Assembly (NCBI GenBank): GCA_019309565.1
Contig: JAFDFZ010000002.1
Span: 1-64,000, forward strand
DNA: 64,000 nucleotides
DNA from: Deltaproteobacteria bacterium
Lineage (GTDB): Bacteria; Desulfobacterota; Desulfobacteria; Desulfobacterales; SURF-15
Reading direction: 5' to 3'
The notes below the pieces were generated by a model. The model ran no database searches and was not told the origin of the DNA. It saw nothing but the letters and a program-made list of their open reading frames with translations. Below are positions 1-1,603 of the stretch, piece after piece. The translations under genes were made by a program, and so were the position numbers. Numbering within the stretch: the stretch's first letter is position 1; every line of letters starts with the position of its first letter.

Positions 1-74
1 TCTTCATCAATCCAGACATCAATTTTAACATTCAATAGTTCCAAGTCTCTGAAAGATTTGTCAGCATTTGCCAT
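1..74 (-). CDS. Hypothetical protein, 3' part beyond window edge
   Basis: A minus-strand ATG at 74-72 opens a frame that runs off the left edge, beginning MANADKSFRDLELLNVKID. A weak GAGG lies about 12 bases upstream. It starts 80 bases after the stop of the RiPP precursor on the same strand, so it may be the next gene of that cluster (an exporter, protease or further tailoring gene would be expected there). With only 24 residues visible I do not recognise it and the call is tentative. Confidence 0.3.
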   Translation of the reverse strand, partial: MANADKSFRDLELLNVKIDVWIDE

Positions 75-154: not shown

Positions 155-295
155 TTAACGGCACCCATGACACGAAGAGCACTGCCTGCAAACGATCCTC
201 TTGCCTGAAGAGTTGATAATCTCTATCGGAAATTTCATGGTCTTCTCTTTTTTCAAGATTGGTTTTTCATAGGCTCGTTTTTTATCCTTTTTCAT
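155..295 (-). CDS. Cys-rich RiPP precursor peptide (46 aa)
   Basis: A short ORF with a strong Shine-Dalgarno (AAAGGAGG at 310-303, 7 bases before the ATG at 295). It overlaps the 3' end of the PqqD-like gene by 14 bases, so it is translationally coupled. The 46-residue product has a very basic N-terminal leader with a YEKPIL motif at residues 9-14, a KFPIEII block at 21-27, then GKR and a core ending CRQCSSCHGCR. The four cysteines, C36, C39, C42 and C45, are spaced exactly three residues apart. A KP-type leader, a Cys-rich tail and an adjacent radical SAM/SPASM enzyme plus peptide-binding domain are the hallmarks of a ribosomally made, modified peptide. The chemistry (thioether cross-links, metal or Fe-S binding) is inference; I do not recognise a named family. 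Confidence 0.78.
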   Translation of the reverse strand: MKKDKKRAYEKPILKKEKTMKFPIEIINSSGKRIVCRQCSSCHGCR

Positions 296-587
296 TTTTC
301 CCCCTCCTTTTGATAATCCCTTCGTTTAGAAAGCCAGCTATTATTTCTTGAAAATCATCTTTGCCTTGATTTTCATCCACTTCAAAGCTGTCCAGGAACC
401 CCCCCAAAACATCTTTTACAGCCAAACCCTCAGCGATCTGTTCCAGTATCCAGTAAGAAGTTTCGTTGAGGCTGTAATGTTCCCCCGAGTCGATATTGAA
501 AACCCAGTATTTTCCAAGCTCAGTAATCTTCTGAAGAAAGATATTCTCGCATAGCGTAAAAGTATCGTTCTGATTTATTTCCAGCAT
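282..587 (-). CDS. PqqD-like RiPP recognition protein
   Basis: A 101-residue protein of PqqD size and pattern: an N-terminal beta-strand region (TFTLCENIFLQKI), the typical NIDSGEHYSLNETSYWILEQIAEG segment at about 31-54 (residue-then-helix signature of PqqD), and a C-terminal helical part ending in a basic tail. PqqD proteins bind the leader of a precursor and present it to a radical SAM enzyme. Here the gene lies between that enzyme (13-base overlap) and the precursor (14-base overlap), so all three are one transcription unit. The role as leader-binding chaperone is inferred from family and context. Confidence 0.82.
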   Translation of the reverse strand: MLEINQNDTFTLCENIFLQKITELGKYWVFNIDSGEHYSLNETSYWILEQIAEGLAVKDVLGGFLDSFEVDENQGKDDFQEIIAGFLNEGIIKRRGKNEKG

Positions 588-1603
588 TGGGGATCCTCAG
601 CAAGGTAATCGCCGGTCAGGGCATAAGCTATTGCGCGGCAACCACGGCATACCGGTATAAGATCACAATCAGCGCACTTTCCTTTAATTTTTTTTTGGTT
701 TCTGACGTTCCACAAGATTTCAGACGTGTACCACACCTTGTAAAAGCTGTCCGTCATGGAGTTCCCAATGGGAATAGGCAGACGCCGGCAGGGATAGATG
801 GTCCCGTCATGCATAATGGTCAATGCATTGTTTCCGACTGAGCACAGTGCGCCAACGGTAGGATCGTTCCCATCAAGGAGCGCAAATAGAGGACGGTACA
901 ATAGAAGCCTTATCTTATCCTCTTTCATTGCAATGGAATAGATTTTCTGAAATACCTCCCTTACCTCGCCGGCTGTAAGAAACTCATCTTTAAGCCCCGC
1001 GCCCACCCCCTCGGGGATGAATCGTTCGGCAGAAAAAGTATCAACACTGTTTTTTTTAAGGAGTTCAATGAGGGGTTCAACCTCATTCTTATTCATGTGG
1101 CTGATGGTCATCATCACCGCCACGTGAAAACCATTTTCTTTCAATAGCCTGATAGCGGATAAAGTTTTTTCAAAGCTGCCTTTACCCCTTATCCGGTCGT
1201 TCAGCTTTTGATTTCCAGCTTCCAAGGAGACCTGGACCCTTCTCAACTTTCTGAATTCCTTTAGCTCCGATATAGTGGCCTCATCAAGCAGCGATCCATT
1301 GGTCAAGAGATCGAAATGGATGATGGTCTCAAGGGAGTTGATGTGCTTCAAAAGGGGAAATAGCTTATCCATAACCATAAACGGCTCTCCCCCTGTTATG
1401 GATAGTGTTCCATCCTTATTCCATTTCCTCAACGTGGCATCAATCTTGTCGGCGATCAGGATTAATTCGTTTAAACTCAATTCATTAGCAGAAGTGTAAT
1501 CGGCGTGGTAACAGTGTTTGCACCGAAAATTGCATTTTTCAGTGATATGCCATTGGAAATAAAACTCGTTCTCAGCACCTGGCTTGATGGCATAATTATT
1601 CAT
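575..1603 (-). CDS. Radical SAM/SPASM peptide-maturation enzyme
   Basis: A 342-residue enzyme. The radical SAM [4Fe-4S] motif is CNFRCKHC (C24, C28, C31), followed by the SAM-contacting SITGGEPF. The C-terminal SPASM domain has seven cysteines in the canonical order: C254, C272, then C310-x2-C313-x5-C319-x2-C322 and C340 three residues from the end, enough for two auxiliary Fe-S clusters. SPASM enzymes modify peptides by radical chemistry (C-C, thioether or epimerisation). It is the first gene of a minus-strand unit with the PqqD-like protein and Cys-rich precursor downstream, making that precursor the likely substrate. An AT-rich region with a short palindrome lies upstream. Confidence 0.9.
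   Translation of the reverse strand: MNNYAIKPGAENEFYFQWHITEKCNFRCKHCYHADYTSANELSLNELILIADKIDATLRKWNKDGTLSITGGEPFMVMDKLFPLLKHINSLETIIHFDLLTNGSLLDEATISELKEFRKLRRVQVSLEAGNQKLNDRIRGKGSFEKTLSAIRLLKENGFHVAVMMTISHMNKNEVEPLIELLKKNSVDTFSAERFIPEGVGAGLKDEFLTAGEVREVFQKIYSIAMKEDKIRLLLYRPLFALLDGNDPTVGALCSVGNNALTIMHDGTIYPCRRLPIPIGNSMTDSFYKVWYTSEILWNVRNQKKIKGKCADCDLIPVCRGCRAIAYALTGDYLAEDPQCWK

Follow-up and report, generated by a model that had tools for sequence, protein, structure and literature searches.

Three overlapping genes are located on the minus strand near the start of the 64,000-nucleotide stretch of DNA analyzed here (the window), with overlaps of 13 and 14 bases between the radical SAM, PqqD and precursor genes. 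The features of this region are as follows.

575..1603, minus strand: radical SAM/SPASM peptide maturase (rSAM), 342 aa, with PF04055, PF13186 and ten Cys
282..587, minus strand: PqqD-like RiPP recognition element (RRE) protein, 101 aa, PF05402 at 32.8 bits, above cut-off
155..295, minus strand: precursor peptide gene, 46 aa, MKKDKKRAYEKPILKKEKTMKFPIEIINSSGKRIVCRQCSSCHGCR, supported by 13 other type I orthologues and by dN/dS
158..190, minus strand: precursor core CRQCSSCHGCR, residues 36-46, with four Cys invariant in alignment A4
254..271, minus strand: leader motif YEKPIL, residues 9-14, putative RRE-binding site, with Y9 and P12 invariant in A4
296..316, minus strand: Shine-Dalgarno region of the precursor gene (AAAAGGAGGGGGAAAA), from the sequence
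1..74, minus strand: first 24 codons (MANADKSFRDLELLNVKIDVWIDE) of a TPR/metallo-beta-lactamase gene, the rest of which is on contig C77 (L138:41-2995)

The coordinates, strand and order of the three genes were as given in a preliminary description of this DNA. The radical SAM/SPASM enzyme with all ten expected cysteines proposed there was confirmed by Pfam, with both PF04055 (Radical_SAM) and PF13186 (SPASM) passing their cut-offs, and by the presence of exactly ten cysteines (24, 28, 31, 254, 272, 310, 313, 319, 322 and 340), all at CX3CX2C/SPASM positions. The assignment of the second protein as PqqD-like was also borne out, by its match to PF05402 (PqqD). The 46-residue precursor carried a cysteine every three residues as described (36, 39, 42 and 45), behind a good Shine-Dalgarno sequence (AAAAGGAGGGGG), and was the only one of 1,011 window ORFs of at least 20 aa in which the pattern C..C..C..C was found.

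A scan of 84,980 genomes with an alignment of the rSAM yielded 80 loci. A precursor ORF was conserved beside orthologous enzymes, almost always so for the closer rSAM relatives. Fourteen sequences, the window's included, were assigned to type I, with a C-x-Q-C-S-[SG]-C-H-[GS]-C-[RKS] tail at the extreme C-terminus and no other Cys. The random variation in Cys spacing which would have refuted the preliminary description was not observed, as all 14 type I loci, which come from archaea and from several bacterial phyla, kept the same C-x2-C-x2-C-x2-C spacing, and the distance from the leader Y-x-x-P to the first Cys was 26-28 residues in each (14/14). A type II tail, W-C-F-G-C-[TS]-N-C-x-C, was found beside related enzymes in Lachnospiraceae and other gut Bacillota, Desulfamplus, Hydrogenedentes and Bacteroidota. 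On alignment of 23 precursors (A4), Tyr (Y9), Pro (P12) and the four Cys were invariant, while Met20 and Phe22 were nearly so. Comparison of the window precursor with that of its closest relative, locus L053, gave 15.8 synonymous differences over 26 sites and 6.2 non-synonymous differences over 112 (dS ~1.2, dN ~0.06, dN/dS ~0.05). Judged by this substitution pattern, the precursor is a real gene under purifying selection; that it is not a chance ORF is supported both by dS/dN and by orthologues occupying the equivalent position in 13 other type I loci. An independent test, in which the prediction could have failed, was provided by a profile of the peptide alone, which was run against 395 genomes of the phylum and recovered one further convincing locus (G427) with a complete cluster. 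A weak profile match at G736/L142 was located inside a 901-aa frame and was judged a false positive. Selenocysteine read-through of the precursor was rejected because the stop codon varies among orthologues (TAA, TGA or TAG). No family in NCBIfam or Pfam matched the precursors, which supports the earlier view of a RiPP cluster whose short precursor falls in no named class. With a conserved precursor ORF, and with CX3CX2C and SPASM cysteines accompanied by a PqqD partner, the criteria for an rSAM/RRE-dependent RiPP were met. As a separate observation, the related rSAM/PqqD pairs at L081-L083 were accompanied by a third precursor type, YEKPxLxxLDAEEFYLTLMxNYGxxDSCYS; these type III tails (...DSCYS) were kept apart, having one Cys only and neither an AsnB nor a toroid family at their loci.

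The tails could also be taken as ligands for an Fe-S cluster or zinc, with the rSAM acting elsewhere, either on the leader side or on another protein. C-x2-C-x2-C-x2-C is a plausible ligand set, and all four Cys together with one His are kept in type I. In type II, however, the same machinery is accompanied by a C-x2-C-x2-C-x1-C tail without His, and because its spacing differs and the His is missing, a single metal geometry is not conserved. The presence of a leader and an RRE also argues for the peptide as a substrate, and we regard metal binding of this kind as very unlikely.

The cluster had been described as compact. This did not hold, because contig C111 ends at the first base of the window, and the apparent compactness is an artefact of truncation. 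When the same genome was searched for the neighbours of related clusters, contig C77 was identified, and its first 114 bases proved identical to the reverse-complemented start of the window. This match looks like an ordinary assembler overlap, and the operon was taken to span C111 and C77. The TPR/metallo-beta-lactamase (MBL) gene on C77 had a 40% match to the L053 protein, and the gene order over the two contigs was that of L053, except for a DNA methyltransferase in the latter. The restored operon begins with rSAM, PqqD, precursor, TPR/MBL, toroid and asparagine synthase genes and continues with genes for a glycosyltransferase (GT), a P-loop kinase-like protein and an HD-like protein, so that MBL and HD-like genes are both present in the window's organism. 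Next come nucleotidyltransferase genes matching PDC-S09, a PADLOC candidate family; one of these has a small gene after it. An in-frame TGA was also noted in the TPR/MBL gene of this operon (L138:26-2995), with an ATG directly after it in the same frame, which may represent a split gene, decay or unusual readthrough; because of it, the window's copy of the cluster may be decaying or split.

Families of neighbouring genes were defined by clustering of 31 loci with Pfam and NCBIfam annotation. An alpha/alpha-toroid protein of ~270 aa was present in most complete loci, and its model (pLDDT 93) had drimenyl diphosphate synthase, squalene-hopene cyclase and complement/macroglobulin TED domains as nearest folds. 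Its identification as LanC was rejected, the fold being like that of type II terpene cyclases and complement TED, without a conserved Cys/His set. The amide-forming enzyme of type I was either a full glutamine-dependent asparagine synthase or the synthetase domain alone, and that of type II was usually an AsnRS/AS-A-like (asparagine-synthetase-A-like) protein, absent in L068. Several hydrolase variants were found: a protein of ~950-1,200 aa with an HxHxDH metallo-beta-lactamase domain, a helical/TPR N-terminus and usually a C-terminal CxxC pair; a ~600-aa HD-like protein; a dGTPase with PHP (L061); and, in type II, an amidohydrolase-GNAT fusion with a B12-type radical SAM protein. The recurring combinations were toroid with AsnB-like enzyme in type I and AsnRS-like protein with amidohydrolase-GNAT in type II. 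Two loci in one Thermoplasmatota MAG had rSAMs which were 95% identical, with the MBL protein in one and the HD-like protein in the other, and a P-loop domain was fused to the MBL protein in G427. The HD assignment (family F10) rests only on invariant His and Asp residues (H281/H284/H326-D327/H446-D447), as the AlphaFold model had a pLDDT of 41 and no PDB match was obtained for this protein; PDB likewise returned nothing for the MBL protein in a sequence search.

These neighbours bear on whether the product is an ordinary secreted RiPP, a sactipeptide- or ranthipeptide-like bacteriocin or signal merely travelling with defence genes on mobile islands. Tailoring-like genes (AsnB, GT and B12-rSAM) recur, Cys-rich tails are typical substrates, and the nearest solved rSAM structure, the sactisynthase SkfB (6efn), was the only solved relative at E<=1e-10. 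However, no transporter, leader-peptidase or immunity gene was recognized among the conserved neighbour families (Pfam and NCBIfam), hydrolases of ~600-1,200 aa would be odd as tailoring genes, and the tail is near-invariant across phyla, unlike those of diversifying bacteriocins. A secreted product is considered unlikely. Conversion of the peptide to a small redox or metal cofactor for the hydrolases or the toroid, comparable to PqqA and mycofactocin, would also be consistent with a near-invariant tail and with export genes not being recognized. The architecture of the PQQ and mycofactocin systems is likewise rSAM, PqqD and a short precursor, but neither a degradation protease nor a dehydrogenase partner matching these systems was found, and the associated hydrolases are not redox enzymes, making this explanation more doubtful still.

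On the rSAM tree the window enzyme grouped with that of a KSB1 MAG, followed by Nitrospirota and a Levybacteria bin and then by another Desulfobacterales MAG, in disagreement with taxonomy. Type I and type II each required one change on this tree when unlabelled rows were ignored. Among 390 genomes of the order, a close enzyme (E below 1e-80) was limited to 5, one of them the genome of the window itself. Because presence is sporadic and the rSAM tree conflicts with taxonomy, these data indicate horizontal transfer between lineages. Most loci are from MAGs, and some MAG names may be binning errors. The rSAM was not found in plasmid records, nor was the type II rSAM found in phage records.

Hand-picked flanking genes matched BREX PglZ, DUF499/HmaC, DUF1156 methylase, DrmD and the type I specificity subunit (HsdS), as well as type IIG and III methylases (RM), SEFIR and SIR2. 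To avoid hand-picking, every protein of 200 aa or more flanking 20 type I and type II loci (n=93) was scanned with PADLOC at E<=1e-40, with 93 flanking proteins from nine outgroup rSAM loci as control. At this threshold 66 PADLOC families were matched in the test set versus 1 in the control. As these families overlap and a single gene can match several, the per-locus count is the fairer comparison; of 10 type I loci scanned systematically, 6 had a defence context, against 1 of 9 controls (one-sided p=0.04), with family assignment partly from the hand-picked scan and with a small control set. Type II gut loci were carried by mobile elements, and known defence genes were absent from most of these loci. 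When PADLOC-DB 2.0 models were applied to the cluster proteins themselves, the hydrolase, HD-like and toroid proteins were unmatched, and the rSAM matched only viperin models, through the shared fold. Location among defence genes supports a defence role but is no proof of it, because defence islands also gather unrelated mobile cargo; the GT, AsnB and toroid could equally fit a natural-product pathway. Separately, Cas10-like and RAMP-type genes (type III CRISPR-like) were noted upstream of a related rSAM in Acidulidesulfobacteraceae (L077:435-6687).

The window enzyme was below cut-off for all of the named NCBIfam models listed here. Its top-scoring named family, over full length (7e-60), was that of the ACGX system (TIGR04340), at 203 bits against a cut-off of 400, and the precursor lacks ACGX repeats. 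GeoRSP (TIGR04303/TIGR04302) likewise pairs an rSAM/SPASM enzyme with a PqqD-family chaperone, but the window enzyme reached 161 of 400 bits and the chaperone 13 of 100. Sactipeptides (SkfB) and ranthipeptides (PapB) share a SPASM enzyme and a Cys-rich C-terminal core, whereas the window enzyme scored 81 of 340 bits with the PapB model and 89 of 625 with StsB, the partner genes differ, and the linkage type is undetermined; Cys is joined by a thioether to an alpha carbon in sactipeptides and to a beta or gamma carbon in ranthipeptides. Lasso peptides are alike in having a separate RRE, a YxxP leader and an AsnB-fold enzyme, and the best NCBIfam match of the RRE protein was a lasso PqqD chaperone. 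The cluster AsnB, however, was below cut-off for the lasso cyclase NF033535 (135 of 525 bits) and by score is a true asparagine synthase (TIGR01536, 335 over 267); the cluster also has a Cys core and no recognized leader protease. Prokaryotic viperins (pVip) are antiviral radical SAM proteins with similarity in the rSAM core, but the window enzyme scored 70 of 180 bits with NF038283, and a SPASM domain, RRE and peptide are found only on the window side. SCIFF (six cysteines in forty-five residues) requires six Cys, while the precursor has four and no NCBIfam match. Two papers place other RiPPs near defence genes or note their co-expression with them (PMC11118758, PMC12715929); neither was returned when this motif, or a pairing of PqqD and asparagine synthase, was searched for. 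No account of the system came from literature searches combining rSAM/PqqD with asparagine synthase or anti-phage activity, or from those on the motif itself, and no family model, paper or PDB match that was found describes it. An earlier description cannot be excluded, because subscription journals and preprints were largely uncovered. The precursors, of 40-54 aa, are easily missed by gene callers, which may explain the absence of a name.

We lean towards the view that the cluster makes an unnamed, horizontally spread rSAM RiPP which is produced within the cell as part of a probable system against phages or mobile elements. The gene set, the conserved peptide, the modular exchange, the inter-phylum transfer and the location beside defence genes are read directly from sequence. 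The scheme built on them is inferred throughout, in its chemistry, peptide modification and step order as in its target and protective activity. The PqqD/RRE protein would bind the Y-x-x-P leader, and the fixed spacing would place the tail, ~27 residues away, into the SPASM enzyme, which is predicted to cross-link Cys to neighbouring residues, most likely as thioethers. The type I asparagine synthase or the type II AsnRS/AS-A-like paralogue, with the toroid, would then complete the peptide or handle it. The mature form may remain intracellular and act against phages or other mobile elements together with one of several interchangeable metal-dependent hydrolases (TPR-metallo-beta-lactamase, HD-type, dGTPase/PHP or amidohydrolase-GNAT). 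A more specific proposal is put forward only tentatively, namely that the peptide, matured by the rSAM and an asparagine-synthetase-type enzyme, is a sensor, switch or warhead for exchangeable nuclease or phosphohydrolase effectors in the immunity of bacteria and archaea; the evidence does not settle whether it serves as sensor, lock, warhead or cofactor. If true, the intracellular anti-phage reading would join rSAM RiPP chemistry with anti-phage defence, two fields which have barely met, and if defence were proven this would be a new class of system. The analysis yields a portable set of about ten genes, in which the peptide belongs to either of two invariant classes and the hydrolase is one of several that can be swapped.

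Other RiPP-like loci were also noted. A second RiPP-like cluster is present in the same genome (L002:763-3966, contig C253, ~50.3-53.5 kb). An rSAM/SPASM enzyme and an HPr-kinase-like protein are encoded there together with two small proteins, one of which looks PqqD-like by eye, and a long KCQxG-repeat peptide whose leader is YEPPRL. At L040:361-2267, L042:3290-5238 and L050:3863-5673, rSAM/SPASM genes adjoin proteins with glycine/cysteine-rich tails (GGGCGSGCGGGCGG...), possibly another maturase/substrate pair.
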